This document shows positions 10,538-26,212 of a DNA stretch of 64,000 bases, piece after piece; position 1 is the first letter of the stretch, and every line of letters begins with the position of its first letter. The stretch is from Alistipes indistinctus YIT 12060 (lineage in GTDB: Bacteria > Bacteroidota > Bacteroidia > Bacteroidales > Rikenellaceae), in assembly GCF_025144995.1 (NCBI RefSeq), contig NZ_CP102250.1:930001-994000 (forward strand). Reading direction: 5' to 3'. The notes under the pieces were generated by a model. That model was not told where the DNA came from. It saw nothing but the letters and a program-made list of their open reading frames with translations, and did no database searches. The position numbers and the translations under genes are program-made.

Positions 10538-10613
10538 GCGGAAATAGCTCAGTTGGTAGAGCACAACCTTGCCAAGGTTGGGGTCGCGAGTTCGAGTCTC
10601 GTTTTCCGCTCCA
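10538..10613 (+). tRNA. tRNA-Gly (anticodon GCC)
   Basis: The full cloverleaf is visible. Acceptor GCGGAAA pairs with TTTCCGC, the D-arm is GCTC..GAGC, the anticodon stem CAACC/GGTTG encloses loop TTGCCAA with anticodon GCC at 10571-10573, and the T-arm is GCGAG TTCGAGT CTCGT. The discriminator is T and CCA is encoded at 10611-10613. The 3' end of this tRNA is the integration site of the adjacent island. Confidence 0.97.
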
Positions 10614-10691
10614 GAGGCTAAGACAGCGAAAGACGCTGTCGCGCCAAAATCAGACAAAAACCCTTTGAAACGATGTTTCAGAGGGTTTTTT
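10600..10691 (+). repeat. left attachment-site repeat (attL) at tRNA-Gly
   Basis: This 92-bp stretch is identical to 21242-21333 (constant offset 10,642). It begins within the last 14 bases of the tRNA and continues through a small hairpin (GACAGCG/CGCTGTC at 10622-10640) and the following terminator. Weaker homology continues past it because both copies are followed by related integrase regions. The true crossover core is probably only part of the 92 bp. Confidence 0.85.
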
Positions 10692-10692
10692 T
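10656..10692 (+). terminator. intrinsic terminator after tRNA-Gly
   Basis: The stem AAAAACCCTTTGAAAC / GTTTCAGAGGGTTTTT has one G-T wobble, a three-base loop GAT and a final run of seven T. It lies inside the attachment repeat, so it separates the tRNA transcript from the integrase gene. Confidence 0.88.
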
Positions 10693-10754
10693 ATGCCCTC
10701 TCCCAAGACATCGCAGGACATCGAAAAGCCATTTCCGGACAACTTGGTGTCCCC

Positions 10755-10823
10755 AAAGTGTCCCACTCGCGTGGTGCAACCTAAAAGTGGGACACTTTAG
10801 ACGTAAGAGGTGGGACACTTTAG
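10755..10823. repeat. three copies of GTGGGACACTTT upstream of the integrase
   Basis: GTGGGACACTTTAG occurs at 10787-10800 and 10810-10823 in direct orientation, and its inverse AAAGTGTCCCAC at 10755-10766. The same arrangement, slightly diverged, lies before the broken integrase at 21397-21464. Repeated short sites near an att site and integrase promoter suggest arm-type integrase sites, an excisionase site or an operator. Confidence 0.65.
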
Positions 10824-10912: not shown

Positions 10913-12145
10913 ATGAAAAGTACATTCAGAATCCTATTCCTTGCGAGGTGGGAATTGAAGAAAGAAAACGGTAAAGTGCCCCTATGCGCACGGATTACCA
11001 TTGACGGCGAAAAGGTAAAGTTCAGCCTCAAAGCTGAGATATTCGGAAACCACTGGGATCCAAAATCAGGTAGAGCCAAGGGGCAAACAAAAGAAGCCCT
11101 GCAATTAAACCGCTACCTTGATAGCATCAAGGGGCAAATGATCATGCATTATCATAACCTCTCGGAGGCTAATGAGATCGTGACTGCCGCGATGGTGCGG
11201 GATGCTTTTCTCGGCACGAATATCAAAAGCAATACGCTGCTGACCGTGTTCGAAGAATTCAACGACCGGCAGGAAAAATTGATCGGTATTGACATCGCCC
11301 AATCCACCTTTAACAAATATGATCTGACCTATCGACGGCTGAAGGAATTCCTGAAAGTCAAGATGCGGAAAAACGATATCCTGCTTTGCCAGGTTGATCG
11401 CAATTTCGTAATGGACTTTGAAACGTGGTTGAAAACCGAATATAAACTCGACACCAACTCCTCGGAGAAACTGATGCGGATATTCAAACGCATTACTACC
11501 ATGTGCTTCAAGAATGGCCAGATGCCGCGAGATCCATTTTGTGACCATAAACTCAAAAAAGTAAAGAAAGATCGCGGCTATCTGACCAGAACCGAACTGG
11601 AAAAGATTATCGATTTCAAACCCGATAGTAAGCGGCTCGAAAAGGTGCGCGACATCTTTCTGTTCTGCTGCTTTACCGGCTACGATTATTCGACAACTGC
11701 TGCCCTTACTGACAAGGAATTGGTCATGGACGATGATGGGCACGAATGGATCGACACCCATCGCATCAAAACAGGTACACCTTCAAAGGTCAAGCTTCTC
11801 GACATTCCTCTAACCATTTTGAAGAAGTACGAACTCAAGCGTGATGGCAATTACCTCCTCCCGGTAATGAGTAACGCCAAGTACAATCTATATCTGAAAG
11901 AAATTGCGGCAGCCTGCGGAATTGAAAAGCGTGTGACCTCGCATCTCGCTAGGCACACGTTCGCCACTACCGTTACTTACGCCAACGGGGTCTCTATCGA
12001 ATCCATCAGCAAGATGCTCGGCCATACTAAAATCAGCACCACCCAGATCTACGCCCGGATCGTCGACAAGACCATCAACGACGAGATGGACAAGCTGGCG
12101 CAAAAACTCGGAAACACGAAGTTCAGTCTTCAGGGAAACCGGTAA
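10913..12145 (+). CDS. tyrosine recombinase (site-specific integrase)
   Basis: A 410-residue integrase of the Bacteroidetes mobile-element type. Residues 1-90 form an arm-type DNA-binding domain, about 105-215 a SAM-like core-binding domain and about 230-400 the catalytic domain. Catalytic residues are visible: His344 and Arg347 in HLARHTFA, His371 in LGHTKIS and the nucleophile Tyr380 in TQIYARI. The usual first Arg is replaced in CCFTGYDYSTT, as is known for IntDOT-like Bacteroides integrases. It lies 299 bases after tRNA-Gly, reading away from it, the standard position for an element integrase. A closely related broken copy lies at 21522-22596. It probably excises and integrates the 10.6-kb element. 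Confidence 0.93.
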   Translation: MKSTFRILFLARWELKKENGKVPLCARITIDGEKVKFSLKAEIFGNHWDPKSGRAKGQTKEALQLNRYLDSIKGQMIMHYHNLSEANEIVTAAMVRDAFLGTNIKSNTLLTVFEEFNDRQEKLIGIDIAQSTFNKYDLTYRRLKEFLKVKMRKNDILLCQVDRNFVMDFETWLKTEYKLDTNSSEKLMRIFKRITTMCFKNGQMPRDPFCDHKLKKVKKDRGYLTRTELEKIIDFKPDSKRLEKVRDIFLFCCFTGYDYSTTAALTDKELVMDDDGHEWIDTHRIKTGTPSKVKLLDIPLTILKKYELKRDGNYLLPVMSNAKYNLYLKEIAAACGIEKRVTSHLARHTFATTVTYANGVSIESISKMLGHTKISTTQIYARIVDKTINDEMDKLAQKLGNTKFSLQGNR

Positions 12146-12313
12146 AACGATGCTGTGGAAATGTGTCCGTATAAATCGACTGCAATCGACCGCCGATCAA
12201 AGAATATTAAAAAAATCGATTCTTTTCAACCTTTTTCTTTTAAGGTGACCTATTCGCTATTGTAACCTTTCCCGTGAAAGGCGAAAGGAGTATTTATCGA
12301 AAAAAGATCGATT

Positions 12314-13192
12314 ATGAATGAAAATGTATCGCAAGCTTTCGAGCAGATGATCGAACGGCAGTCACAAAAGAAATGCATCCGCAACGGCATTGTCGTATAC
12401 GGTGCGTCGAGCGCCCGTAAATTCCGCTACCTCAGGGATTCCCTGAAACGGTTCTCGGAAACGGTCCTCTGCCGGGACTTCGAAACCTTGACTTTCACCG
12501 ATATCGACAGCGGATTCCTGCAACGGTATGTGAGCCATTTACAAGGCCGCAACGTCGCAGAAAAAATCCGAAAGCTGAAACAAATCTTCCGTTCTGCACA
12601 TGCCGGTACCGAGGTTTTCGATCCGGTCGAGGCCATCCCTGCGGTTCGGAAAACAACAGACCCGTTCATTCCCTATTCAGAGATTGTCCGGATCAGGGAA
12701 ATGGAGCGGAGCGGCCTTACGAACAAAGAGTCGTTCTGCCTGGATCTATTCCTGTTCGGATTCTATTCCGGCGGCTCGTCGGTCGCGGAGATGGCCGCAC
12801 TCCGGGAAGAAAACGTACATGGTGATTATCTCTGTTGCGAACGGACAGGCTGCTCGGGGACAGCCCGGATTCCGCTGAACAAATATGCCAAAGCGATCCT
12901 TCGGAAATACCGGAAAGACGGCTTTGGGGATTACCTGCTGCCTGTATTTACTCATAAACACCTTTCTTCAGAACAGCAGCAGGGCCGGATCAAACGGATA
13001 ACCGAGCAGACGAACGGGTTGATGAAAGAGATCGCCCGCAAACTACAGTTGGAATGCGAACTTACTTTGGGTATGACAAGGCGCATTTTTATCGAACACA
13101 TGCTCGCCTGTCGGATGCCGCTCGAAACGATCGCAGAAGTTACCGGATGTACCCTCGATACCATCATCCGTTATCTTGAAAAACATAAGTAA
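12314..13192 (+). CDS. degenerate tyrosine-recombinase-like protein
   Basis: A 292-residue protein with a SAM-like domain (ARKFRYLRDSLKRF) followed by a recombinase catalytic-domain fold. It aligns by eye with the C-terminal three quarters of the protein at 13664-14932, for example in the ARKxRYL segment and the LDLFLF segment. It lacks an arm-type domain. In the catalytic box the usual HxxRH is GMTRR, and the later LGH is TGC, so both histidines are missing, although an Arg and a C-terminal Tyr (IIRYLEKHK) remain. It may be an accessory DNA-binding factor, a recombinase using a different active-site set, or a decaying copy. The frame is intact, which argues against simple decay. Confidence 0.75.
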   Translation: MNENVSQAFEQMIERQSQKKCIRNGIVVYGASSARKFRYLRDSLKRFSETVLCRDFETLTFTDIDSGFLQRYVSHLQGRNVAEKIRKLKQIFRSAHAGTEVFDPVEAIPAVRKTTDPFIPYSEIVRIREMERSGLTNKESFCLDLFLFGFYSGGSSVAEMAALREENVHGDYLCCERTGCSGTARIPLNKYAKAILRKYRKDGFGDYLLPVFTHKHLSSEQQQGRIKRITEQTNGLMKEIARKLQLECELTLGMTRRIFIEHMLACRMPLETIAEVTGCTLDTIIRYLEKHK

Positions 13193-13300
13193 GATAAAGC
13201 CCATGGATATACCGTATTTTCTGCCGGGGGTGCACTTACAGTAAAACGGGTCGAAAAGCAGGACGTTTACTGTATATCTGAAAATGAAGAAATTCAAAAT

Positions 13301-13335
13301 AAAAAAGGTGAGCCACGGAAAGGGTCACCTTTTTC
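13301..13335 (+). terminator. intrinsic terminator after the second recombinase-like gene
   Basis: AAAAAGGTGA (13302-13311) and TCACCTTTTT (13325-13334) pair across a 13-base loop and end in a T run. It lies in the 471-base gap 13193-13663, which holds no convincing gene. The only other structure seen there is the inverted repeat at 13629-13659. Confidence 0.75.
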
Positions 13336-13628
13336 ATTTGTATGTTCCTGACTCCCTAGATATATCGGGAATGTGTCATATTCCATTAAAAATCAATCCA
13401 TTATATAATCTGGGGTTGTTTCAGTCTTGTATATTTACATCGTTCGTATCTTCAAAAAGACATTTAGTATTCACATTCAGCACACAACTAATAAATAATC
13501 AACACATTAAATCATAATATTACTAACGGCCGATCCAAAAGCAAAATTACCCGCAGGAACCGGTCTTCGAAACTGTAACGGATATATTTTTGCCTCGTCT
13601 TTCAGATAGCCGAGAGTAAACGACAAAC

Positions 13629-13659
13629 GGTATTTTAAGCCGAAATTACTTAAAATACC
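13629..13659. promoter_or_regulatory. 11-bp inverted repeat just before a recombinase gene
   Basis: GGTATTTTAAG (13629-13639) and CTTAAAATACC (13649-13659) are perfect inverted arms with a 9-base spacer, ending four bases before the ATG at 13664. It could be an operator or translation-control hairpin. Arms of 11 bp around a short spacer also resemble the core sites of tyrosine recombinases. Confidence 0.6.
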
Positions 13660-13663
13660 AATT

Positions 13664-14932
13664 ATGTTTACAGTCAACATCAAAGGGCGGAGGGATTCGA
13701 AGAACATCGAACTGGTCAAACTCGACCTGATTTTTTACAAGCGCGGATATGCCCGCGTTTCAAAAGTGCTCCGCATCACGGGACTCTACCGGGAATGGGA
13801 TCGAAAGAGCCAGTCGTTCATCGGAACGGATGCGGCCGAAAAGAACAAACTGCTCCGGCAGGAAAAACTCAGATACCTGAAGATCGCGGAGAAATGGGAG
13901 TATCAGGGCAAAGATTGGATTCCTGTCGAGTTATCCCATTATTACGATGACGATCCCCGGGTCAGAAACCGGTATATTACCGTCTCAGAGACGATCGACA
14001 CCATGGCGGAAAGAACGGCTGCCCGGAAACGATACAAGAACGGACTGATACTGACAAGCGAGCCGACAGCCCGAAAATATCGCTATCTGAAAACTTCGCT
14101 CGAACGGTTTACCCGTAGCAAATATCACAGGGACTTCTCGAAATACCGATTCCGGGACATCACGGAGCAGTTCTTGCTCGATTATACGCTTTGGACACAG
14201 GTTTACGGCGGAAAGAAAGGAAACAACGGCGGCATCCGGGAAAAGCTCCGGAAACTGCGGGCGGTCTGCCTGTATGCCAAAGAAACCGGTGTCTACAATG
14301 TCAATCCGAATGCGTTTCGTCCTCTGCAGGAGAAACTAAAACCACGCCTTGTCACTCCTAAAGGCGTTTCCCCTGAAATCATCCGCAGGATCGAAACGTT
14401 CGATCGGTCAGGTCTCGATAAAAAGGAACCGTTTTATCTCGATCTGTTCCTGTTCAGCTACTATGCCGGCGGAATGTCGGCCATCGATGTTTGCTTGCTG
14501 ACAAGGGATCGGATAAAGGACGATATGATCGTCTACGACCGTACGAAATTCGATAAGCAGGCACGGGTAATCCTGACCGACAAAGCGATCGGGATCATCG
14601 ACCGTTACCGTGATGCCGCGTATATGAATTATGTTTTTCCGACGATCAAACGGTGCAATCCGACACAAGCGAAACTTTATGGCCGGGTCAAGCGGATCAA
14701 CGAGAAAGTTAACCGGACGCTGAAGAAAATCTGCGACCTTTCCGGCATCGGCCAACGGGTCACATGGAGCACTGCCCGCAGCAGTTACATCTCCCGCATG
14801 ATCGACGAGGGATTCCATCCGCTTCAGGTCGCCGAGCTCGCAGGAAACTCTCCACAAACCATCTACAGGCATTATTACACCATCTCGGACAAAGAAAAAA
14901 TGAAAGAAAAGATGAACCGAATATTTGAATAA
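13664..14932 (+). CDS. tyrosine-recombinase-like protein with altered active site
   Basis: A 422-residue protein with the layout of an integrase: an arm-type N-terminal domain (residues 1-90), a SAM-like domain (about 130-220) and a catalytic domain (about 240-415). The second catalytic box reads TWSTARSSYIS, with the Arg kept but His replaced by Trp. The LGH box reads AGNSPQT, without His, and Tyr residues remain in IYRHYY. It is paralogous to the shorter protein at 12314-13192. Three recombinase-type genes in a row recall recombinase-in-trio arrangements, but these are spaced by 168 and 471 bases rather than overlapping, and only the first has canonical histidines. Family membership is sure; activity is uncertain. 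Confidence 0.8.
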   Translation: MFTVNIKGRRDSKNIELVKLDLIFYKRGYARVSKVLRITGLYREWDRKSQSFIGTDAAEKNKLLRQEKLRYLKIAEKWEYQGKDWIPVELSHYYDDDPRVRNRYITVSETIDTMAERTAARKRYKNGLILTSEPTARKYRYLKTSLERFTRSKYHRDFSKYRFRDITEQFLLDYTLWTQVYGGKKGNNGGIREKLRKLRAVCLYAKETGVYNVNPNAFRPLQEKLKPRLVTPKGVSPEIIRRIETFDRSGLDKKEPFYLDLFLFSYYAGGMSAIDVCLLTRDRIKDDMIVYDRTKFDKQARVILTDKAIGIIDRYRDAAYMNYVFPTIKRCNPTQAKLYGRVKRINEKVNRTLKKICDLSGIGQRVTWSTARSSYISRMIDEGFHPLQVAELAGNSPQTIYRHYYTISDKEKMKEKMNRIFE

Positions 14933-15000
14933 AATTTCTATTTACATTATTTTTATTTTTGAAAATACTACATGAAATATATATATTCTTATCGCACTAC

Positions 15001-16866
15001 TTATCTTATTGAAACCAATGTTTCTAAATATCTTATATTTTCCGCTCTTGTTTTAGATTTGTAATTGAGACGCAGGCAGACATCTTCTATTTTCTGGCAA
15101 AAGATATCTGCAGAAAGCATAGACATTCTGAGTTCGTTATCTTCTCGGAAAGTCGTATGCCATTGCGCATTATCATCTAACGGATGTTCTGGCCTGAAGG
15201 GATTTATATTAAATATCTTATGGTCGATTTGTGTAATCCAAGAGGCTCCTACTTCTGTAATTGCACCCCATGATGCTTTTGTATTTTCACTTGTAACAAA
15301 AAGAACAAATATTTTTTGGGCCGAATAACTTTCAACAAAAAAATCTTTTAAATAGTCATAAACCGAACTACCTTCAGGGACTCTGCAAACTTCATCATCA
15401 CAGTTCGTGTACAAAATATCTTCTGCCGGTACATTATTGAACAATAGTAATTGGAAAATAATATCGGCGAGAGGTTTATCTTGATAGGTTTGGCTAATTA
15501 GAATCTTCTTTTTTTGTGAATTGACAATAGCTTTTAGACCTAAATCTGGAGCATTACTATTAATTGAGTCGGACACTGCTTTTTCAATCGTTTCGCGGGA
15601 AACATCGGCGCCTGCCTTTCGAATATTTTCCGCCGCACCTTTACTTGCATTATTACGAAAATCATCAATCTCTTTCTTCAGTTCTTCTTCTTTTTGCTTC
15701 AGATTCGCTTCTGCTGCTTTTTTCTTTTCTGCATTATTTAGATCTGTAAATATTTCCCTTTTCCTTAATATAGCCGGCAATAAATCTTTTCGAACATATT
15801 CCACTACCGCCTCATATCTCGGATCGTCCGATTTATACCCTTGACGATTACTCAAAGCCATATCGGGAAGTTCAGATAATTCGAATAAATCGACATGTAA
15901 TTGTCCAACGACGTAAACTTCATTCAGTTTGTTTTGTCCAACTATTGGTAATATATTAAATTCCCCCATTTTCTTATTAGCATACAGGGAAATAAAATTG
16001 TCAGGAAAATCTGTCATCTCGGCTTTCCGACCTCGTGTCGATCTATATGTACCGATCCAACCGACAATCTCAAGCGGGTATTCCCGGATCGTTCCTTCAT
16101 TGTTTTTTACAGATACCGATGTCCTAAACGGGGGACGAGACTCTATCAAATCATATCTTCTATCGGGAAATTCTGTCGGGACTAAATCGCATAAACTAGA
16201 ATATTCATCACCCAAAGATATAAGAGTATTCAGTTCATTCATAATATTTTCATCGAAACGATCGACAACCTCGTATTCTTGCCCTCTAATTATATGTATC
16301 TTAAAATCGCTACCGACTAAAGGAAAAATTTTCAATAGATTTCTCTTAACAGCATATAGTCCCTTGTGCAATCTATATTGTGGATTTTTCATAACGATAG
16401 CCGTTCCATGATTTTCAATCCGGCTAAATATAACATCGTTATCGTCTATCGCTTGTAGTTTATTGCCATCTATAGGCCTTCGGGCAAGAACGAATCCAGA
16501 TTTTTCTCCATTCTCAATAGTCAAAACATTGACACATTCAGAAACAGATAGTGCGGCAAGTTTACCGACTCCTTTTCGCCCCATTTTTTTGCGAGTTCCC
16601 GCCTTAGTGTATGAGTCGTCTTCTCCGATACGAGAAATCCCGGCAACATTCAAGAATTTATTTATGTCGCCTTTTTCATAAGACATTCCATGTCCGTCGT
16701 CTTCAACGCGAATATCGTCTTGATTGGAGATAATATATACATTTTCAGCATCTGCGTCGTATGCATTAGCGATAAGTTCGGCTAATACATAATATATATT
16801 CGAATATAAATTCGGACCCAATAATTCCAAGATACGAGGATCTACATTTAAGCTATATTCTTTCAT
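15001..16866 (-). CDS. GHKL (Hsp90/MutL-type) ATPase fused to a C-terminal TIR domain
   Basis: A 621-residue protein. Residues 1 to about 200 form a Bergerat ATP-binding fold: ELIANAYDADA (Glu30, Asn34, Asp37) is the N box, DDGHGM (57-61) the first glycine box, and GRKGVGK (96-102) the lid motif. A middle region runs to about 370, then an Ala/Lys/Glu-rich coiled-coil segment to about 430. From about 452 a TIR domain starts (KKILISQTYQDKPLAD), with DILYTNC, VPEGSSVYDYL and then TSENTKASW...TEVGASW. Glu538 sits at the catalytic Glu position of bacterial TIR NADases. Inference: ATP-dependent sensing or clamping coupled to NAD-depleting or signal-making TIR activity. It is co-directional with vsr (77 bases apart) and AT-rich like the rest of the cassette. 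Confidence 0.85.
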   Translation of the reverse strand: MKEYSLNVDPRILELLGPNLYSNIYYVLAELIANAYDADAENVYIISNQDDIRVEDDGHGMSYEKGDINKFLNVAGISRIGEDDSYTKAGTRKKMGRKGVGKLAALSVSECVNVLTIENGEKSGFVLARRPIDGNKLQAIDDNDVIFSRIENHGTAIVMKNPQYRLHKGLYAVKRNLLKIFPLVGSDFKIHIIRGQEYEVVDRFDENIMNELNTLISLGDEYSSLCDLVPTEFPDRRYDLIESRPPFRTSVSVKNNEGTIREYPLEIVGWIGTYRSTRGRKAEMTDFPDNFISLYANKKMGEFNILPIVGQNKLNEVYVVGQLHVDLFELSELPDMALSNRQGYKSDDPRYEAVVEYVRKDLLPAILRKREIFTDLNNAEKKKAAEANLKQKEEELKKEIDDFRNNASKGAAENIRKAGADVSRETIEKAVSDSINSNAPDLGLKAIVNSQKKKILISQTYQDKPLADIIFQLLLFNNVPAEDILYTNCDDEVCRVPEGSSVYDYLKDFFVESYSAQKIFVLFVTSENTKASWGAITEVGASWITQIDHKIFNINPFRPEHPLDDNAQWHTTFREDNELRMSMLSADIFCQKIEDVCLRLNYKSKTRAENIRYLETLVSIR

Positions 16867-16943
16867 AAGAAGTTGTAAACGAAAAGAAAACTCTATTTAT
16901 TTTTTGTTTAAATTTAAATGTTATTAGCCGAATCCCCAATTAT

Positions 16944-17357
16944 TTATTGCTTTATTTCTTCGACCAACCTCTCCAATCGCTGTTTTCGACTTTCAATATT
17001 TTTTATCTCACATTGCCAGACGATCAATACTTTCCATTCGAGAGCTTCAATTTGCTCGATCTTTTTTCTATCTCGTATGATATTTCCTTCTAATTTTTCA
17101 TTCCAGTATGCTTCGTTCGATTGCGGTCTTCGTCCGGCACGACAATCGTGTCCATGCCAGAAGCAACCGTTTACGAATACTACTGTCTTATATTTAGGTA
17201 AAACAATATCTGGAGACCCGGGAAGCCTTCTGTCATTTTTACGATACCTGAACCCGGCTGCAAATAAATATTTCCGTACAACTAACTCTGGTTTCGTGTC
17301 TTTTTGATTTACCAGAGACATTATCTTAGAACGCGAGCTCTTATTCCAGATATCCAT
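16944..17357 (-). CDS. vsr: very short patch repair endonuclease (Vsr)
   Basis: A 137-residue Vsr-family endonuclease, the normal length. The family pattern is clear: DIWNKSSRSKIMS at the start, DTKPELVVRKYLFAAGFRYR, GSPDIVLPKYKTVVFVNGCFWHGHDC with the catalytic Asp of PDIV and the conserved His/Cys residues, and a later VLIVWQCEI strand. Vsr nicks next to T:G mismatches created by deamination of 5-methylcytosine, so it usually accompanies a cytosine-5 methyltransferase, as here: the methyltransferase gene is divergent 119 bases away. It is transcribed together with the GHKL-TIR gene. Confidence 0.95.
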   Translation of the reverse strand: MDIWNKSSRSKIMSLVNQKDTKPELVVRKYLFAAGFRYRKNDRRLPGSPDIVLPKYKTVVFVNGCFWHGHDCRAGRRPQSNEAYWNEKLEGNIIRDRKKIEQIEALEWKVLIVWQCEIKNIESRKQRLERLVEEIKQ

Positions 17358-17431
17358 ATTTTCAATACTTTAAATCGCATCTAAGTTAAGAATTTTACTC
17401 GTCACTGTCAATTTATACTCGAATCTTTTAT

Positions 17432-17439
17432 TAACTTTG
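17432..17439 (+). promoter_or_regulatory. -7 element before the cytosine methyltransferase gene
   Basis: TAACTTTG fits TAnnTTTG and lies 37 bases before the start codon at 17477, in the 119-base divergent gap with vsr. No clear -33 element is seen. Confidence 0.5.
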
Positions 17440-17476
17440 TGAAAAAGATTGGATAGAGTTTTATATAAAGTATTGT

Positions 17477-18547
17477 ATGATACGGCGTAACGACATAGGT
17501 GTGGTCGATTTGTTTTGTGGGGTAGGTGGACTCAGCTTCGGAATGAAGAAACGAGGATTCAATATTATAGCAGGTTTCGATACGGATACGACATGTAAAT
17601 ATGCATACGAGACGAATAACGAATCGCAGTTTATTTCCCAGGATGTTCGTGAAGTAACAGGAGAGCAAATAAAAGCATTATTCGGCGATCATAAAATTAA
17701 GATATTAGCGGGGTGTGCACCCTGTCAACCTTTTTCTTCCTATGCATTTAAAGTCAAGAAAAAAGATCAGACGAAATATACACTATTATATCATTTCGGA
17801 AGGCTTATAAAAGAGGTCCAACCGGATATCGTTACGATGGAGAACGTTTCACAGATTTTATCTTTTAAACAAAAGCCGGTATTTAATGATTTTGTTGCAA
17901 AATTAGAAAGATTAGGATATAAAGTAAAGTACCAAGTCGTATACTGTCCTGATTATGGAATACCTCAAACTCGAAAAAGATTAGTCTTACTCGCTTCGAG
18001 ATTTGGAGAAATCGAACTTATAAAACCGACGCATACTCCTGATCAATATGTAACAGTGGAACAAACTATAGGCAATCTTCCTCCATTAGTCGCCGGAGAA
18101 ACCGATAAAAAGGATTCTTTGCACAGGGCTAGAGCTCTATCGCCATTAAATATGGAGCGTATGAGAGCCACACCTTATGGAGGAAGCTGGAAAGATTGGC
18201 CGATTCATTTACAGCTCGAATGTCATAAACGAGAATCGGGACAATCGTTCGGAAGCGTTTATGGAAGAATGAAATGGGACGCGCCGGCACCGACTATGAC
18301 AACGTTATGCACAGGCATCGGAAACGGCAGATTCGGACATCCTACTCAGGATCGAGCGATATCTTTACGCGAAGCCGCACTCTTCCAAACATTTCCTAAA
18401 GGATATAGCTTTTTCGCCCCAGACGAGAATATCTCTATCTCGAAAGCATCTCGTTATATCGGAAATGCAGTACCGCCAACCTTGGGCAAGATTACAGCAG
18501 ATAGTATTATTCGTCATTTAAAACGATTTAAACTTATCGATAAGTAA
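17477..18547 (+). CDS. DNA (cytosine-5-)-methyltransferase
   Basis: A 356-residue m5C methyltransferase. Motif I is DLFCGVGGLSFGM (residues 11-23), motif IV is GCAPCQPFS with catalytic Cys83, motif VI is MENVSQI, motif VIII is GIPQTRKRLVLLASR, and motif X is IGNAVPPTLGK at the C-terminus. The variable target-recognition region lies between motifs VIII and IX and does not reveal the recognised sequence by eye. Its neighbours Vsr and a possible nuclease make it the modification half of a putative restriction-modification system. The region is clearly more AT-rich than the flanking chromosome, consistent with transfer. Confidence 0.95.
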   Translation: MIRRNDIGVVDLFCGVGGLSFGMKKRGFNIIAGFDTDTTCKYAYETNNESQFISQDVREVTGEQIKALFGDHKIKILAGCAPCQPFSSYAFKVKKKDQTKYTLLYHFGRLIKEVQPDIVTMENVSQILSFKQKPVFNDFVAKLERLGYKVKYQVVYCPDYGIPQTRKRLVLLASRFGEIELIKPTHTPDQYVTVEQTIGNLPPLVAGETDKKDSLHRARALSPLNMERMRATPYGGSWKDWPIHLQLECHKRESGQSFGSVYGRMKWDAPAPTMTTLCTGIGNGRFGHPTQDRAISLREAALFQTFPKGYSFFAPDENISISKASRYIGNAVPPTLGKITADSIIRHLKRFKLIDK

Positions 18548-18592
18548 ACGAGTCTACTAATTGCGATAAGAGTTTATCATTAAAGTTAATAC

Positions 18593-20236
18593 ATGATGCA
18601 AGATGCAGGAGCTGAATTAGTTGATATCATAAAATCGGAGAAGAACTTTATTGACAAAAAAATTGCGGTCAACAATACCCCATTTCTTTTTATAGATCTT
18701 ATTAAAGCCATTGATTACTATTGGCTTTGTCCATATGAAAATAAGGATAATTTTGAAGGTTTTATTCAATATGGATTTCCTGTTTTTTTAAAACAGTTCT
18801 ATTTGACTAGCAATTTTAAAGCGGATTCCCTCCCGATCCATCATTCTTCTTCCGATTCTTTGTCTTTTTGCCATTATTATTTATGGATGTATGGAAAATG
18901 CAAATTATTGGAGCGATATGTAAGACTAGCCTCTCAAAAGGAGGTTTCGATTGCGCGAAATACCCCTACCGAATTCACTATAGAGGCAGATTCATGTCAT
19001 TTAGAATATGTAGAGAATAGATCTCTTGATGAGTACTTTAAAGTAATCAGAGAGTCTGTTTTAAAAAATAAGATTGCGGATTTAGATAAAATTAATAACC
19101 TAATCCTCAAGTCTTTAGATAGCAGAGTAGAGGCCTGGAAAAAGGATTATATCAGATATGATAGCAGTCCGGATATTGACGATTATTATTATCAGACCGG
19201 ATATGTCGCACTGGCTACTTCTCAACTATATGACGACTTTAATGATGATTTCACATTCGGAAATATAACATACAAACACATATTAGATGTAATCCAATCC
19301 GTAATGGGAGTAGCTCTTAAACACATTGATGCATGTATGTTGTTATTAGATAAGTCTCCTCAAACGAAGATATACAATATTTTATCAATACCATTTTTGC
19401 CCGAGGAACTTTATTCCTCATATTCAAATTATTTGGGCATAGATAAGGATGAAGTAAAACAAATTTTTGATTTACTGATCGTTTCACCAGAAAATATCGA
19501 CGACCATTTGAGTTCCGAGAAGGATTTCTCTCCTCCGTTCATTAAGATTGGTAATAAATTTATATACAGATCGATTAAGGGGTGTTTGAGATCGCCTGTA
19601 TTATTTGTTCAAAATGAATTAAAACGAAAATATCCAAAGGACTATTTTCGATGGATTAATGAAAGAGAAAAGATTTTTAGAGACCAATTATACAACCTCT
19701 TTAGTTCGGATCGATTTATAAAAGTAAATAGAAATATCGAAATTAACTCGAATGGAATCAGAACCGATATAGATGCGGCGATATTCGACACACAAACAAA
19801 ATCTTTGAGTATATTCCAATTAAAATGGCAAGATAAATTTGCATCGGACATGCAGGCTAGAAAAAGCCGAATTGCAAATTTTTACCCCAAAGCTAAAGAA
19901 TGGATTGATAAAATCGATTCTTGGAAATCAGAAAATACTTCCAAGAACATACTCAGTGCCCTAAATATAAAAGGCAATGATATCTCTGTAATTTATTTAT
20001 TTGTTATAGGGCGATATAACACTCATTTCAGCAATCAAGAAATTGACAAACGTGCTGCGTGGGGGTCATGGTATCATGTTGTAGAACTAATGCATAAGAT
20101 CAGGACTAATTTCGACAATCCCGTTCAAGAGCTACATTTTAAATTGCAATTAGACTCTCCAATGAATAAAAAATTGGATGTTACTACGGAAAAGCTTGAA
20201 TTCTCAAACTATTTGATAACATGGAACTATAAATGA
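18593..20236 (+). CDS. uncharacterised protein with PD-(D/E)XK-like motif, putative restriction nuclease
   Basis: A 547-residue protein that I do not recognise as a whole. It is Lys-, Asp- and Ile-rich and AT-rich, with no signal peptide or membrane segment. Residues 392-412 read TDIDAAIFDTQTKSLSIFQLKW: an acidic residue on one strand (Asp392 or Asp394) followed after 14-16 residues by QLK, the pattern of a PD-(D/E)XK nuclease core with Gln in place of Glu. A basic segment (KRKYPKDYFRWINEREKIFRDQLYNLF) precedes it. It starts 45 bases after the methyltransferase stop on the same strand, where a restriction enzyme would be expected. The restriction role is inference from position and this short motif. 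Confidence 0.6.
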   Translation: MMQDAGAELVDIIKSEKNFIDKKIAVNNTPFLFIDLIKAIDYYWLCPYENKDNFEGFIQYGFPVFLKQFYLTSNFKADSLPIHHSSSDSLSFCHYYLWMYGKCKLLERYVRLASQKEVSIARNTPTEFTIEADSCHLEYVENRSLDEYFKVIRESVLKNKIADLDKINNLILKSLDSRVEAWKKDYIRYDSSPDIDDYYYQTGYVALATSQLYDDFNDDFTFGNITYKHILDVIQSVMGVALKHIDACMLLLDKSPQTKIYNILSIPFLPEELYSSYSNYLGIDKDEVKQIFDLLIVSPENIDDHLSSEKDFSPPFIKIGNKFIYRSIKGCLRSPVLFVQNELKRKYPKDYFRWINEREKIFRDQLYNLFSSDRFIKVNRNIEINSNGIRTDIDAAIFDTQTKSLSIFQLKWQDKFASDMQARKSRIANFYPKAKEWIDKIDSWKSENTSKNILSALNIKGNDISVIYLFVIGRYNTHFSNQEIDKRAAWGSWYHVVELMHKIRTNFDNPVQELHFKLQLDSPMNKKLDVTTEKLEFSNYLITWNYK

Positions 20237-20432
20237 TTTTGAGTTAAAATAAAATCATTGTTCGAAAAACTTAATACCTTAACTCAAAGGGTTGTGAATG
20301 ATGCAGAATTGCATCGGATTATGGATATGCTGCAGGCAAAATGATATCAAACTTCTTTTTGAAGAAAAGAAATAGTCAGCCCTCCCTTGTGTAGTAGCGC
20401 TTTAGTTAACCACAATAAAAAGGGAATAATAA

Positions 20433-20462
20433 ATTTGTCCGAATTTTAAAATTCGGACAAAT
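20433..20462. promoter_or_regulatory. 30-bp perfect palindrome
   Basis: ATTTGTCCGAATTTT is followed directly by its exact reverse complement. It lies in the 354-base gap 20237-20590 between the putative nuclease and the HTH gene, about 130 bases before the latter. It lacks a T run, so it looks more like an operator or cruciform site than a terminator. Apart from it, nothing convincing is seen in this gap. Confidence 0.6.
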
Positions 20463-20590
20463 AATACGGTGTACTTTAGTATATGCGACAAACATTTTCA
20501 CTTTATTCTCCTATTTCTTTATGTAACGATTGACTGAAGAATGGTTGTAAAGTGATTTGCATTAGATTTTCCGGTAAGCAATTTTGCAAA

Positions 20591-20953
20591 ATGGAGGTAA
20601 TAACTATTGAGTCGAAGGCTTTTAGGCAGCTGATGGAGAAACTGGATGCATTGTCCGATTATGTAAGTTCGTTGAAACCTCCGGTGGAGAATGAGGATGA
20701 AAGTTGGGTGGATAGTCACGATATCTGCGATTTCCTGAAGATAAGCGAACGGACACTGCAACGACTGAGGACGAATGGAAAGATTTCGTATACCAATCTC
20801 GGCGGGAAGTATTACTATCGGATCAGTCAGGTTAAAAAACTGCTGAAGGAGAACATAATTAAAAGTACCGAAGAACACTTCCATGAATTAGCTGAGCACC
20901 ATAAGCGCCATAGTTTCGACCGGGATCCCGAGAAAAACACCGCACTTAAGTAA
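20591..20953 (+). CDS. helix-turn-helix protein, excisionase/MerR-like
   Basis: A 120-residue small DNA-binding protein. The start MEVITIESKAFRQLMEKL matches a family common on Bacteroidetes mobile elements, so the inner start at 20591 is preferred over the longer frame from 20552. Residues about 43-85 form a winged HTH of the HTH_17 type (SHDICDFLKISERTLQRLRTNGKI, then YYRISQVKKLL). Such proteins serve as excisionases or regulators of element transfer. Its position near the right end of the element fits a role in excision or in controlling element genes. Confidence 0.82.
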   Translation: MEVITIESKAFRQLMEKLDALSDYVSSLKPPVENEDESWVDSHDICDFLKISERTLQRLRTNGKISYTNLGGKYYYRISQVKKLLKENIIKSTEEHFHELAEHHKRHSFDRDPEKNTALK

Positions 20954-21049
20954 TTTGTAAAACAATTATTGAAAAGCAATAATCAAAAGATTATAATCGT
21001 AAAACAATAATTAACGACATAGGCCATCCCTCATGACTCATTTCCCCTA

Positions 21050-21080
21050 TTTGTGATATCGGGAATAACCGTTATCTTTG
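21050..21080 (+). promoter_or_regulatory. consensus promoter near the right end of the element
   Basis: TTTG (21050-21053), a 19-base spacer and TATCTTTG (21073-21080) form a full Bacteroidetes promoter pointing into the right attachment repeat. No gene starts between it and the terminator copy at 21298-21333. In the gap 20954-21521 I otherwise see only AT-rich sequence, the repeat and the short motif cluster. Confidence 0.65.
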
Positions 21081-21241
21081 CATTGTAAACCGAAGAAAAA
21101 CAGTCTTGGCGAGGTTAACCACCGTCAGAAATAGGTTTCGGTAAATGTCCCCACTGGTGTCTCATTATGCAAGTTGAACCCAGTGAAGTCAAAGGGAAGT
21201 CATTGATGAGCAATACATAAGGAAGGCGGAGGTCAGACTCC

Positions 21242-21333
21242 CGTTTTCCGCTCCAGAGGCTAAGACAGCGAAAGACGCTGTCGCGCCAAAATCAGACAAA
21301 AACCCTTTGAAACGATGTTTCAGAGGGTTTTTT
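21242..21333 (+). repeat. right attachment-site repeat (attR)
   Basis: A perfect 92-bp copy of 10600-10691, starting with the last 14 bases of the tRNA-Gly 3' end and containing the same hairpin and terminator. No complete tRNA precedes it: only a T-arm-like fragment is seen, so this is a junction and not a second tRNA gene. Confidence 0.85.
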
Positions 21334-21396
21334 CATGCCTTCTCCGAAGACTTCGCAAGACATCCGAAAGCCGTTTTCAGACACCTTGGCATCCCA

Positions 21397-21464
21397 AAAG
21401 TGTCCCCACCGGTTCGATATGAACCTAAAATGGGACACTTTGAGAAAAAAGGTGGGACACTTAG
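21397..21464. repeat. diverged copies of the GTGGGACACTTT motif
   Basis: AAAGTGTCCCCAC (from 21397), TGGGACACTTTGAG (21431-21444) and GTGGGACACTTAG (21452-21464) repeat the order and orientation seen before the intact integrase. Their conservation while the integrase decayed supports a real binding site. Confidence 0.6.
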
Positions 21465-21521
21465 GCTTTTTTCAAACTGTTCTTCAACGATTTACCTAAT
21501 CTGAATAACAGGTAAACAGTT

Positions 21522-22596
21522 ATGAAAAGCACATTCAGAATCTTATTCCTCGCGAGGTGGGAATTGAAGAAAAAAATGGCAAGGTGCCCCTCTGCGCACG
21601 GATTACCATCGACGGCGAAAGAGTGAAGTTCAGCCTCAAAAGCGAGGTAACCGCAAAAATCTGGGACCCGAAGTCCGGCAGAGCAACAGTACAGACAAAA
21701 GAGGCACTTCAGCTCAACCGCTATCTCGACAGCATCAAGGGGCAAATGATATGCACTATCATAGCCTCTCGGAAGCTAACGAAGTCGTGACTGCCTCGAT
21801 GATGCGGGGTGCTTTCCTCGGCACGAATATCAAAAGCAATACGCTGCTGACCGTGTTCGAGGAATTCAACGACCGACAGGAAAAACTAATCGGCATCGAC
21901 CTCGCTCAGTCCACTTTCAATAAGTATGACCTGACCTACCGTCGGCTCAAGGAATTCTTGAAAGTCAAAATGCAGAAGAACGATATTTTGCTCTACCAAT
22001 TAGATCGGAATTTCGTTATAGATTTTGAGACATACCTGAAAACCGAGTATAAGCTGGATACAAACTCTTCCGAAAAGCTGATGCGGATTTTCAAGCGCAT
22101 CACGACTATGTGCTTCAAGAACGGCCAGATGTCTAAAGATCTCTTCTGTGACCACAAACTCAAAAAAGTCAAGAAAGATCGCGGGTATCTCACCAAAGCA
22201 GAACTTGAAAGTATCATCGACTATAAGCCGGATAACAAGCGTCTCGAAAAAGTTCGCGACATTTTCCTGTTTTGCTGCTTTACCGGCTACGATTATTCCA
22301 CTACCGCCGCCCTGACCGACAAAGATTTGGTCGCCGACGATGACGGCGCCCTCTGGATCGATACCCACCGGATAAAGACCAAAACTGCGGCAAAGGTCAA
22401 ACTCCTCGATATTCCGCTATCCATCATCAAAAAGTACGAGCGTAAACGGGACAGCATTTTTTTACTGCCGGTTATGAGTAACGCCAAGTATAATTTCTAC
22501 CTGAAAGAGATTGCAAGTATCTGTGGAATAGAGAAAAACGTCACCTCGCATCTTGGCCGGCACACTAACTACTTAACAGAGTTAAGAGTTCTGTAG
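21522..22596 (+). pseudogene. broken tyrosine recombinase, relative of the intact integrase
   Basis: The nucleotide sequence tracks the intact integrase (10913-12145) closely from its ATG. A one-base deletion near 21549 shifts the frame, and a second near 21749 shifts it again. Homology stops abruptly at about 22565, just after HLGRHT, where sequence unlike the integrase begins and a stop follows at 22594. The second catalytic His and the nucleophile Tyr are therefore lost and the protein cannot act as a recombinase. It marks the left end of an older, mostly deleted element. Confidence 0.9.
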
Positions 22597-22653
22597 AATA
22601 TTATCAACGGTATATCCAGTGACAATCGAATGTCCTCTCCATTTTATCCCTTC

Positions 22654-25212
22654 TTATTCCGCCTTGACGCACCGTAAACTCATAGCGGAAGCTTTCGAAC
22701 TCTCAAGTTGCTGAGCATTAGCTGTACCTATCAGATACCACATATTCCCAGTGTCGGAAGCCGAGGCCGTCAACAGGGCCGCGCACTGTCCAGCTTCTAT
22801 AAGTTCTCCGTCGAAAGAATATTTGTATCCGGCGCCCGGCACAAAAATGGACGCATTCCGGCGGGGACTGTTCGTTGACGGGTTGAAGAACAGCGTGCCT
22901 ATGTAGGCTATGTCTTTGGTGCCCCATGCCACGGCCGTATTGCCTTCCCTGACATCATACCCATTTACGCCTGGCCCTACATAGGGGTTATTGTGAGCTC
23001 TCCGGTCAAAAAAACCGTCCGCATAAAAGCCCCATCTCATATTGCCGTTTGATTGATTCCCCCCAATGGGAGGGTTGGCGTACAAAGACTGCCTGATCTC
23101 CGAATTGGATATATTTGATGCCGAGTTATTCAACGCGACTGCAGAAGTCGAACCGTCGTTCGGCCGGCGGTACCCCGGGGGGCAAGTTTCGTATGTATTT
23201 TTTATACTCTCCCAAAAGTTTGGGTTTGTTTGAGACAACCACCCTGTCGGTACCGTCGTAATGTCGACATTATAAGCACGTCGCGGGTAGATAAGAGGTG
23301 CCCATTGATAGAGCGCTCCGGCCTGTGAAGGATAATCCGTGAACGCGGCATTCGACAGATTTCCCAGGATATCGGTATAAATACTGGAATTGGCCATATC
23401 TGATGCCGTGGCATTGTAGGCGGAAAAACGCACAGCCGATAGACCGCGACTGTTATCGTTAGGATGCATCAGGTAGTCGGCCTCTTCCCCCTGCCGTATA
23501 AATATTACATGATATTTTTGGGGAGACCCGTAACGCAGCAACACCAAAGCATAGCGGACAGGGACGGCAGTGGTAGGCGTATAGGTGGAGGTCAGGCCTA
23601 TGCGGAAAGAAATATAGTTGCCGGTTCCGCTGACAACGCTTCCTGAGGCCGAAGACAAATGCCCGGAAACGATGAAAGTGGCGTCATTGGCCGGCAAAAG
23701 CATATCGGCCGGAGTTTCAGTGCTGCGGTTATAGGTTATGCCCGCATCGTCGGAATCCTCCGTACTGAATACGATATCACCCGCGCTCCATCCGTCGCCC
23801 AGCCAGAATACCGATGCATCCCAGCTTCCCGCGAGCAATGATGAACTGACAGGTATGCGTATGATACGCTCCCCTTTCTGATTGTTTTTCCAGTATGCTC
23901 CGACGTATTGATCGTGGATATAGCTGGCGTGTATCACTGATGACGCATAGTCGGGCAGTTGCACAAGGTTGATTTTTATGTCCGTATCGTCCGTATTGAC
24001 AATGGTCCCGGTTATTTCGTTCGTCGTACTGTTGTTAGAGGTGGGTTTCCATGCATAGAGCGTCGTCGTTCCCGATCCGCTGTAAGAGCCAATGACCGGA
24101 ATGGTTCCGTCCAGGTTTTTCACATTGGCGGCAGTAAGCGTTCCGGCCGCCCAGCCCTGCAGGTCGGCGAGGTTGTCGCAAATATAGAAATTGGTGCCCG
24201 CTATGGTCCAGGCCTTGGGAGACTCGTTTTGCACGATCACGTTGAACTGCGAGAACCCTCCCATAGGCGGAAGAACAATTTTTTCCGGGGTAAGCATAAT
24301 GATGGCATCGGGGGATACGGATAAACTGTAATTGATACGCTGCCCGGGCGACCATGTAATTCCGCTCAGGTCGAACTCAACATCCGGACGCCCGTCATCG
24401 ACACCCACGATCAGCCTGGCGCCGGTCGGGAGAGTCTGCGGAATCATCATCAAGTAACCGCCGCCGGTATTGACCAGCTGCGACGAAGGATCCAGGTATA
24501 CATCCGTATCCACCGTGGCTTCAAAATTTCCTGTGGAGGAGGAAGCGATATTCCATGAGAATGTTCCGTCAGCATTGGTTGTCAAGATGCCGTCGATCTT
24601 AACTCCCTGTATTTCAAGCTTAATTATTTGCTGTCCGTTGCCAGAAGCCTTGAATCCGATGCATGTCAGGGCGTGCCTCATCTGAAAATTGACAGGTGCA
24701 GAGCCGTTATTGGTTTTGTTGCGGTCTGCCACAAGAGCCGAAACCATTAGATCAGGCTGGTCGGAGCAGTTCGTGGGAACGGTATAGCTGATAGTCGGAA
24801 TGCCTGTAGTAACATTTGGAGTTATCCCGTTAGCAGCGGCAGCGTGGGGCGAATAGGCGAAAAAGCTAATATTCGCATCCGCGGCCTGAGGCCAGTAGGC
24901 CGGATTGTCGTAGGTCCAGGAGCCGCTGTTGTGGGAAACCTTCACGTTATTCATAAAATCAGGGGTCGCTGTCGCTCCGTTCGCCCCCCAGTTATTGGAG
25001 GTTCCGTTGCCGGTATAATATGCAAATACTCCCATATCCGGGATGTCCGCTACCGATTCCACCGGCATTCCGCGGGTGAAGGCATCACCCGGGTTACCAA
25101 TGAAACCGATCCTGCCGTCACCGTACCCGTAGCCTTCCATTTCGTTTTTAGTACAGGACACAGCTGCAACAGCTGCGGTCAAGCTTATTATTATAAATCG
25201 GATAGTATTCAT
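22654..25212 (-). CDS. large fimbrillin-family lipoprotein (Mfa-like)
   Basis: About 852 residues. The start at 25212 (MNTIRFIIISL) is preferred because it gives a clean signal peptide with a lipobox at AVSC. The N-terminal third resembles fimbrillins (GRIGFIGN, then DMGVFAYYTG and YWPQAADANISFFAYSPH). A middle region (PPMGGFSQFNVIVQNESPKAWTI) resembles the Ig-like BACON or fimbrial domains of Bacteroidetes surface proteins. The C-terminal portion has CPPGYRRPNDG and ends in SLRCVK, typical of tip or adhesin subunits. It is much longer than a shaft fimbrillin (about 300-400 residues), so it is probably a tip or anchor adhesin. It is the last gene of a four-gene leftward cluster. Confidence 0.8.
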   Translation of the reverse strand: MNTIRFIIISLTAAVAAVSCTKNEMEGYGYGDGRIGFIGNPGDAFTRGMPVESVADIPDMGVFAYYTGNGTSNNWGANGATATPDFMNNVKVSHNSGSWTYDNPAYWPQAADANISFFAYSPHAAAANGITPNVTTGIPTISYTVPTNCSDQPDLMVSALVADRNKTNNGSAPVNFQMRHALTCIGFKASGNGQQIIKLEIQGVKIDGILTTNADGTFSWNIASSSTGNFEATVDTDVYLDPSSQLVNTGGGYLMMIPQTLPTGARLIVGVDDGRPDVEFDLSGITWSPGQRINYSLSVSPDAIIMLTPEKIVLPPMGGFSQFNVIVQNESPKAWTIAGTNFYICDNLADLQGWAAGTLTAANVKNLDGTIPVIGSYSGSGTTTLYAWKPTSNNSTTNEITGTIVNTDDTDIKINLVQLPDYASSVIHASYIHDQYVGAYWKNNQKGERIIRIPVSSSLLAGSWDASVFWLGDGWSAGDIVFSTEDSDDAGITYNRSTETPADMLLPANDATFIVSGHLSSASGSVVSGTGNYISFRIGLTSTYTPTTAVPVRYALVLLRYGSPQKYHVIFIRQGEEADYLMHPNDNSRGLSAVRFSAYNATASDMANSSIYTDILGNLSNAAFTDYPSQAGALYQWAPLIYPRRAYNVDITTVPTGWLSQTNPNFWESIKNTYETCPPGYRRPNDGSTSAVALNNSASNISNSEIRQSLYANPPIGGNQSNGNMRWGFYADGFFDRRAHNNPYVGPGVNGYDVREGNTAVAWGTKDIAYIGTLFFNPSTNSPRRNASIFVPGAGYKYSFDGELIEAGQCAALLTASASDTGNMWYLIGTANAQQLESSKASAMSLRCVKAE

Positions 25213-25294
25213 AACCGTGTCTATTTTTAAATCTTTAGTGACCGGAAGAGGTATCACCCTCTTCCGGCCTGTGTTACCAAAACGTCTCCTTTAT

Positions 25295-26212
25295 TTATGG
25301 CTGGGGAAGTTCGGGATCGGGCGTCACAGCAGTCCAATCTTCAGCAATGGAAGACTCGAATTCGATTATATTGAAGATCGGATCCGTTCCGCCGCCGTGC
25401 GAATCGGCGTCAATAATCATCTTCAACAAATAATGCTTGCCTTTTTCGAACTCATCGGCGGGGATATTGCCAGTCGCAATCGTATACTGCTGCAGATCGC
25501 CACTGTAGATTGTGGTTCCGTTTTTCGTTATCGTTATGCCGGCTGTAATCTTCACTTTACATCCTACCGAACTTTGCGGCATAATCATGTAAGAAGCTGC
25601 TCCTGCATAGGTTGCAGACGTTGAATTAGGAGAGGCCCATGCGGGAGTAGTGGCCGTCGGATCGATTGTTCCTCCTGTCGATTGAACATCCAGACTGGCA
25701 GTAAGCCCTGTTGTGCTGAGTTGGTAGCCAGCATCTGACAAGTCATCATGCAATTGGGCTGTAACGGTGATCTTGGCCAACATATGGGAAAAAGCCAAAC
25801 CTACAGTGCCGGAAGTCAGGCCCAGTTGAGGAGCGGCAATGGTAAAATCCTTGTTGGCATTTGCTGGAACTTCATAGGCGATTGAGAGAGCCGGATACGC
25901 TCCGGTCGCCGCAACGTCTGCCGGAGCCCATGCGTAAAAATCCACACTGCCGGAAGCGGGCCAGTAGTAAGGGCCACCGCTGGGGACATCGCTTGCGCTT
26001 ACCTGATCGTTGATAAACCAGCCTGTCCCACCACTCCAGGCTGCATAAACCCGGTAAGGATCGTTCCCATCGTTTGCGGCACGGGTCAATTTGTCGTTAA
26101 GGTTGGTAAATTTGATCTGCTTCGGAGTGAATCCGTCAACGTTTTCCTGTTCGTTTTTCGAACAGCCTGCTAATATGGCTGCCGCGGCCAAAGCCATTAA
26201 GATTTTTTTCAT
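25295..26212 (-). CDS. fimbrillin-family lipoprotein
   Basis: A 305-residue protein with signal peptide and lipobox (AAAAILAGCSKNE). The mature part shows fimbrillin features: IKFTNLNDKLTRAA near the N-terminus, where a protease-processed Arg site is known in related pilins, PYYWPASGSVDFYAWAP, and the AFSHMLAKITVTA segment. It is probably a pilus shaft or accessory subunit polymerised by donor-strand exchange after processing, as known for FimA/Mfa1-type V pili. It lies between the DUF5119 gene and the large fimbrillin, with gaps of 167 and 82 bases. Confidence 0.85.
   Translation of the reverse strand: MKKILMALAAAAILAGCSKNEQENVDGFTPKQIKFTNLNDKLTRAANDGNDPYRVYAAWSGGTGWFINDQVSASDVPSGGPYYWPASGSVDFYAWAPADVAATGAYPALSIAYEVPANANKDFTIAAPQLGLTSGTVGLAFSHMLAKITVTAQLHDDLSDAGYQLSTTGLTASLDVQSTGGTIDPTATTPAWASPNSTSATYAGAASYMIMPQSSVGCKVKITAGITITKNGTTIYSGDLQQYTIATGNIPADEFEKGKHYLLKMIIDADSHGGGTDPIFNIIEFESSIAEDWTAVTPDPELPQP

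Follow-up and report, generated by a model that had tools for sequence, protein, structure and literature searches.

Textbook restriction-modification (R-M) defends by cutting unmethylated DNA, and R-M systems are also known to kill cells that lose them. ParaMORC4 proteins were defined by Iyer, Abhiman and Aravind in 2008 as GHKL-S5-TIR proteins in R-M contexts, and the TIR domain was guessed there to be a nuclease or an allosteric site (PMC2292703). Anantharaman et al. (2013) described paraMORC-Ymh fusions in R-M neighbourhoods and likened them to PrrC and RloC (PMC3710099). SpbK is a phage-activated TIR NADase that switches on when it clusters on the phage portal; activity is lost in the G194R and W197A mutants, and E192 lies within the modelled NAD+ site (PMC12847820). 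We analysed a 64,000-nt stretch of the Alistipes indistinctus YIT 12060 genome (GCF_025144995.1, NZ_CP102250.1, positions 930,001-994,000, forward strand; hereafter the window), which encodes a 621-aa GHKL-TIR protein, a Vsr endonuclease, a C5-cytosine methyltransferase (DCM) and a 547-aa protein. The initial annotation had listed these four open reading frames (ORFs), and all were found again, strands and positions included (Table 1). On sequence comparison, our best reading is that DCM and GHKL-TIR form an R-M chassis whose executioner has been swapped for an NADase-type TIR.

The N-terminal part of GHKL-TIR resembled a restriction endonuclease. Residues 4-410 matched positions 1-390 of 659 in the NCBIfam model of BbrUII/HgiDII restriction endonucleases (NF050001, 3.3e-64), and PADLOC type II restriction endonuclease models were matched by 22/22 aligned members of the family. 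The NF050001 score of 217.6 bits was far under the 550-bit equivalog cut-off, and the C-terminus was a TIR domain, at the position where true BbrUII/HgiDII members have a PD-(D/E)xK-like end. Because the nuclease is replaced in this way, no DNA cutting is expected from the GHKL-TIR chain. The nucleotide-binding motifs of the GHKL domain were conserved, and Pfam detected HATPase_c_3 (7.9e-17). That restriction might be tied to an abortive effector had been put forward earlier from the window alone; the homology of the ATPase half to true BbrUII/HgiDII enzymes supports it and makes the link to restriction stronger than could be told then.

The C-terminal part was assigned to the SpbK type of TIR. 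The PADLOC spbK model matched GHKL-TIR of the window (5.6e-18) and all 22 aligned members, and a family profile matched the TIR of SpbK chain 9phb over residues 447-560 (1.3e-13), bearing out the proposed fusion of a GHKL ATPase and a TIR. E538, G540 and W543 aligned with SpbK E192, G194 and W197 (the numbering allows for 24 extra residues, the PDB chain having 290 residues and SpbK 266), and all three were invariant in the 22 family sequences. Glu538, which had been picked out as the catalytic residue, thus corresponds to SpbK E192. The domain-profile check suggested for the 621-aa protein was positive for HATPase_c_3 and negative for the Pfam TIR models, which gave no match in GHKL-TIR of the window. 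Since these models fail on the family as a whole (1/22 members at 0.01), the miss was not read as absence of a TIR domain. The predicted structure, with a mean predicted local distance difference test (pLDDT) score of 70.6, placed an alpha/beta domain (452-617) after the GHKL and S5-like domains and a long helix (349-418). Its GHKL-S5 part matched MORC3 (VIA, Z 17.4, root-mean-square deviation 4.1 over 287 residues), and Hsp90 and topoisomerase VI were also matched. Because the GHKL half fills the Foldseek and VIA lists of the whole model, the TIR fold was assessed by sequence profile and not by fold search.

These results bear on the function proposed for paraMORC4 in 2008. By analogy with the nuclease-bearing paraMORC3, the TIR was taken there as a nuclease or as an allosteric domain that binds nucleotides (PMC2292703), which would make the protein a restriction or DNA-looping factor and not an NADase. 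The TIR of this family, however, groups with SpbK, a proven NADase, and its catalytic Glu is invariant, and we regard the 2008 proposal as quite improbable here.

The conserved gene pair and the C-terminal domains of its relatives

A main scan of 84,980 species genomes yielded 32 relatives of GHKL-TIR, mostly 50-72% identical and of full length. They came from Bacteroidota, Fibrobacterota, Pseudomonadota, Verrucomicrobiota, Kiritimatiellota, Thermodesulfobacteriota, Bacillota and one archaeal metagenome-assembled genome (MAG), MAG labels being possibly wrong. A DCM of the same family lay within ~1 kb in 23 of the 32 loci, usually directly upstream and often with a 4-bp overlap, which agrees with the earlier proposal of a link to a 5-methylcytosine (m5C) methyltransferase. 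The two genes also adjoined in L047, a relative from a genome search, and in the viral contig L079. The DCM was farther off on the same contig in L002, L003, L004, L008, L009 and L018, and on a different contig of the same MAG in L027; no DCM was found in L031, and the L010 sequence was cut at the gene start. Gene order varied, with the DCM upstream and colinear, convergent (L024, L028), divergent with Vsr (L020 and the window) or after Vsr (L079), and adjacency was retained throughout these arrangements. In a Listeria record, DCM and GHKL-TIR alone formed a clean two-gene insertion between apparent core metabolic genes.

The DCM of the window was detected by Pfam (DNA_methylase, 7.8e-63) and contained the motifs PCQ, ENV and GNAVPP, with an HgiDII-like target-recognition domain between motifs VIII and IX. 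Vsr, which performs very-short-patch repair of m5C deamination, was also detected by Pfam (7.8e-36) and adjoined GHKL-TIR in a minority of loci. Judged by gene content, DCM and GHKL-TIR make up the conserved unit, with Vsr as an optional accessory.

The plasmid and phage collections contained almost no full-length relatives, giving one Listeria record and one distant phage paraMORC3, and a DNA-level search of E. coli genomes gave no match. The IMG/VR contig L079 has the gene order GHKL-TIR-Vsr-DCM; the system therefore also moves on phage-like or neighbouring mobile DNA.

The initial annotation had treated the four genes as one system. In other genomes GHKL-TIR and DCM did occur together, but the main scan showed a homologue of the 547-aa gene near 0/32 other GHKL-TIR loci. 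A four-gene cassette, with the 547-aa nuclease-like protein as its working part, for example as a DNA-cutting arm, would suit the position of this ORF, which starts 45 bp past the DCM on the same strand, and the conservation of a nuclease-like motif. Relatives of the protein (25-34% identical) share TDIDA or TDVDA and QLKW, as in PD-(D/E)xK enzymes with Q for E, and TD-DA and QLKW were invariant in five aligned sequences. These relatives, however, stand alone or in phage contigs. They occurred in phage contigs, on plasmids of rhizobia and elsewhere in the Bacteroidia, and neither GHKL-TIR nor DCM appeared in the flanks read, those outside the plasmids. Moreover, L020, the closest match in layout, has other genes at this position. 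A four-gene system is thus highly improbable, and the 547-aa protein was rejected as a part of it.

The 547-aa protein had no Pfam match. Its structure model was weak overall, with better parts within 360-480, and Foldseek returned nothing significant for it, the best match being a Shedu nuclease (E 0.62). The gene is best treated as a separate one, perhaps encoding a stand-alone defence nuclease. Relatives were observed in the phage contigs L080 (4355-6025) and L082 (5902-7701); the L082 copy lies between regulatory and tail-like genes, which fits a stand-alone defence gene.

A survey with the BbrUII model covered 395 Bacteroidota genomes and 398 genomes of the Alcanivorax phylum. Similar GHKL halves carried different C-termini, namely a PD-(D/E)xK nuclease, a TIR or a HEPN domain. 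The nuclease type was found in L034-L039, L042, L043, L083 and L084, where the class was assigned from PD-(D/E)xK-like motifs by eye or from a full-length BbrUII match, with weak SduA_C or HSDR_N_2 matches in a few of those scanned. The Ymh/HEPN type was found by Pfam in L044, L045 and L048. C5-methyltransferases adjoined several of the GHKL genes surveyed. GHKL proteins beside a C5-methyltransferase were also seen at L040 (958-2607) and L041 (967-2655); the C-terminus of the former contains Rx4H (RDAMAH) and has no Pfam match, and on this motif the two ends are possibly a further class of HEPN-type effector.

In the protein tree, GHKL-TIR formed one clade (100/100); the order of the effector classes is unsure because the tree warns of long branches between them. 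The TIR-linked DCMs were not monophyletic (approximately unbiased test, p=0.0004), and well-supported branches joined them with nuclease- and HEPN-like-linked DCMs. Similarity was higher in the target-recognition domain than in the remainder of the DCM in 362/378 TIR-TIR pairs and 84/84 TIR-nuclease pairs, but in only 257/726 control pairs, where pairs are non-independent and the control set includes a few close core relatives. We read the TIR- and nuclease-linked DCMs as one specificity group on these alignments. The predicted DCM target, GTCGAC or a closely related site, follows from M.HgiDII, for which methylation of GTCGAC was reported (PMC5867850). GTCGAC was absent from 12063-23262 of the window, where ~1 site was expected by estimate, so that its absence is uninformative.

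Proposed mechanism and DISARM placement

We give about an even chance to the proposal that DCM and GHKL-TIR are a two-gene R-M-like defence unit whose restriction subunit kills or stalls the cell rather than cutting DNA. Such a system may recognise foreign DNA in the style of a restriction enzyme yet respond by shutting down the cell. The DCM would mark host DNA at the target site predicted above. The GHKL-S5 half, with the clamp shape of MORC, MutL and Hsp90-like proteins, would dimerise on ATP and load onto DNA that lacks the mark, and multiple loaded clamps would gather their C-terminal TIR domains. Clustered as in SpbK, the TIR domains would build composite active sites, degrade NAD+ and abort the infection. 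Vsr would repair m5C deamination at the methylated site. The sequences themselves establish the domain composition, the gene linkage, the kinship with restriction enzymes, the conserved catalytic residues and the exchange of methyltransferases with nuclease-type systems, whereas clamping on ATP, the unmethylated trigger, NAD+ cleavage, the target site and phage defence are predictions.

Seven loci (L002, L003, L004, L008, L009, L027, L031) had GHKL-TIR followed or surrounded by DISARM genes, where the calls rest on PADLOC for L008, on gene lists, with L031 also examined, and on likeness of the neighbours to L008 for the other loci. The order in L008 (485-16542) was DCM-vsr-drmD-drmMI-GHKL-TIR-drmA-drmB-drmC, with PADLOC matches far above chance. 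A C5-methyltransferase, and in some loci also Vsr, stood at the start of the DISARM-embedded operons. Among the window genes examined around GHKL-TIR, none was drmA, drmB or drmC; these were present in other loci only. At L034 (637-4940), a BbrUII/HgiDII-type GHKL-nuclease and Vsr were observed beside drmB and drmC, and this type of restriction enzyme can therefore also belong to a DISARM locus.

The DISARM loci also bear on the main rival, which we consider somewhat unlikely. GHKL-TIR would then act as a guard that reads no DNA sequence and instead watches a phage protein or the resident methyltransferase, R-M or DISARM machinery, its NADase firing when that defence is blocked or breached. 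The seven loci, with drmA, drmB and drmC and mostly drmD and drmMI, are places where GHKL-TIR could serve as a backup, and SpbK, whose type of TIR it shares, responds to a portal protein, YonE. Release of R-M-linked HEPN effectors upon neutralisation of R-M was proposed by Anantharaman et al. (PMC3710099). The sensing half, however, is the one common to true restriction enzymes and not the SpbK N-terminus, and the minimal unit of DCM and GHKL-TIR contains no nuclease to guard.

Several points weigh against the proposed two-gene unit. In DISARM operons GHKL-TIR stands among helicases and other methyltransferases, and because of this placement its trigger may be a protein state and not a site. 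The sequence-recognition part of the BbrUII/HgiDII enzymes is not known to fall within the shared half, and the correlation of GHKL and DCM distances within TIR systems was modest (Mantel r=0.33). The GTCGAC target is predicted by analogy, and the structure model is of middling confidence, with parts of the TIR below pLDDT 50.

We tentatively suggest, with somewhat less confidence than for the two-gene unit itself, a general class of executioner-swapped restriction systems. A methyltransferase and a GHKL chassis reading a DNA site would be combined with an interchangeable DNase, TIR NADase or HEPN RNase, would also be plugged into DISARM, and would turn unmethylated DNA into NAD+ loss or RNA cleavage, as a methylation-gated suicide enzyme. 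If so, restriction and abortive infection would be two outputs of one chassis, with the methyltransferase as the antidote of the suicide enzyme, and phages with the right methylation or with anti-R-M proteins would be predicted to escape suicide. It would also offer a direct route to test how a MORC/MutL-type ATPase reads DNA methylation, a question that extends to the MORC proteins of eukaryotes, and would account for a class of proteins on record since 2008 to which the literature searched assigned no function.

The system had been called possibly under-described, which was fair: the architecture was noted in 2008 without a function (PMC2292703), and no later study was found in the open-access literature. 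As far as its accessible text goes, this literature gave no functional test of a TIR-form paraMORC, and no description of GHKL-TIR in DISARM was found there. New here is that GHKL-TIR is directly homologous to BbrUII/HgiDII enzymes, an SpbK-type TIR standing in for their nuclease, and that its catalytic and assembly residues are conserved. Its close pairing with methyltransferases, their exchange between systems and its DISARM placement are likewise new.

The mobile island and its gene content

The four genes lie on a 10.6-kb island at tRNA-Gly(GCC), the tRNA gene being at 10538-10613. The attachment repeats and the tyrosine integrase (Table 1) confirm the earlier placement inside an integrative element. 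The AT-rich character noted before was likewise borne out, with a GC content of 32-39% across 15-21 kb and 46-60% in most flanking windows.

Table 1. Features of the island and of the GHKL-TIR region, in window coordinates.
Feature	Position	Strand	Remark
Left attachment repeat: tRNA-Gly(GCC) 3' end and adjoining DNA	10594..10764	+	
Tyrosine integrase of island (Arm-DNA-bind_5, Phage_int_SAM_5, Phage_integrase)	10913..12145	+	Pfam
Second tyrosine-recombinase-like protein of island	12314..13192	+	Pfam
Third tyrosine-recombinase-like protein of island	13664..14932	+	Pfam
GHKL-TIR, 621 aa: N-terminal GHKL-S5 ATPase, long helix (349-418), SpbK-type TIR (~447-617)	15001..16866	-	Core gene 1, predicted sensor/effector
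TIR-encoding segment (residues ~447-621), E538/G540/W543 aligned to SpbK E192/G194/W197	15001..15528	-	
Vsr endonuclease, 137 aa	16944..17357	-	Optional accessory; upstream of and colinear with GHKL-TIR
Intergenic region, 119 bp, between divergent vsr/GHKL-TIR and DCM units	17358..17476	.	Presumed promoter region; divergent layout also in L020
C5-cytosine methyltransferase (DCM), 356 aa	17477..18547	+	Core gene 2
547-aa protein, TDIDA...FQLKW motif (PD-(D/E)xK-like, QxK variant)	18593..20236	+	Separate stand-alone gene, probably outside core system
Further listed feature	20552..20953	+	
Right attachment repeat, 91% to left copy	21236..21406	+	Island boundary; second related element begins

GHKL-TIR was not found in 8 other genomes of the genus. 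In the congener G1136, synteny from nadE to tRNA-Gly was kept and the cassette was absent; downstream similarity did not resume within 20 kb, and a joined empty site was not demonstrable there. A mobile island that carries the DCM/GHKL-TIR pair and is absent from 8 congeners would suit a role primarily in addiction, in which GHKL-TIR kills cells that lose the island as their new DNA goes unmethylated and phage defence is secondary. R-M systems are known to act in this way, and addiction is compatible with the proposed two-gene defence unit, unmethylated DNA being the trigger in both. Placement in DISARM operons favours defence, however, and addiction as the first role seems unlikely.

A second integrative element (21236-22596) abuts the first, shares its attachment repeat, contains a degraded copy of the integrase, and is followed by fimbrillin-like genes at 22654-26212. 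The chromosomal neighbour of the island is the NAD synthetase gene nadE (8347-10272). Because the position of nadE beside tRNA-Gly is conserved in the congener, its closeness to an NADase-type gene is probably chance.

Comparison with known systems

The BbrUII/HgiDII type II R-M systems, made up of a GHKL-nuclease and a C5-methyltransferase, share with GHKL-TIR a homologous GHKL-S5 half, a C5-methyltransferase family with a conserved target-recognition domain, frequent Vsr and the gene neighbourhood, whereas their C-terminus is a PD-(D/E)xK nuclease and not a TIR. GHKL-TIR of the window agrees with the definition of paraMORC4, since its neighbourhood is of the R-M kind and a C-terminal TIR follows its GHKL-S5 part. 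The Hx[ST]xD motif of the first TIR loop, seen in some paraMORC4 proteins, was found in L013, L024 and L032, and the window and many others have Q for H. The accessible part of the 2008 description concerns architecture only, and NADase function and methyltransferase interchange are not described in it.

SpbK, a TIR NADase of Bacillus ICEBs1, resembles GHKL-TIR in the matching catalytic Glu and helix-C assembly residues and in being borne on a mobile element. Its N-terminus binds the phage portal, whereas GHKL-TIR begins with the ATPase module of a restriction enzyme and is linked to a methyltransferase. The paraMORC-Ymh proteins likewise combine a GHKL half beside a C5-methyltransferase with a C-terminal effector that is not a DNase, but this is a predicted HEPN RNase rather than a TIR, and their GHKL and DCM are more distant. 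VcSduA, a Shedu protein with a GHKL ATPase, also joins a GHKL ATPase and a defence effector on one chain; its effector, however, is a DUF4263 nuclease, and it was reported as a stand-alone defence protein (PMC12137116). Class 1 DISARM is related by context, since seven loci have GHKL-TIR among or next to drm genes and the L034 GHKL-nuclease lies beside drmB and drmC, whereas the window has no drm genes and GHKL-TIR is not described as a DISARM component in the literature found.

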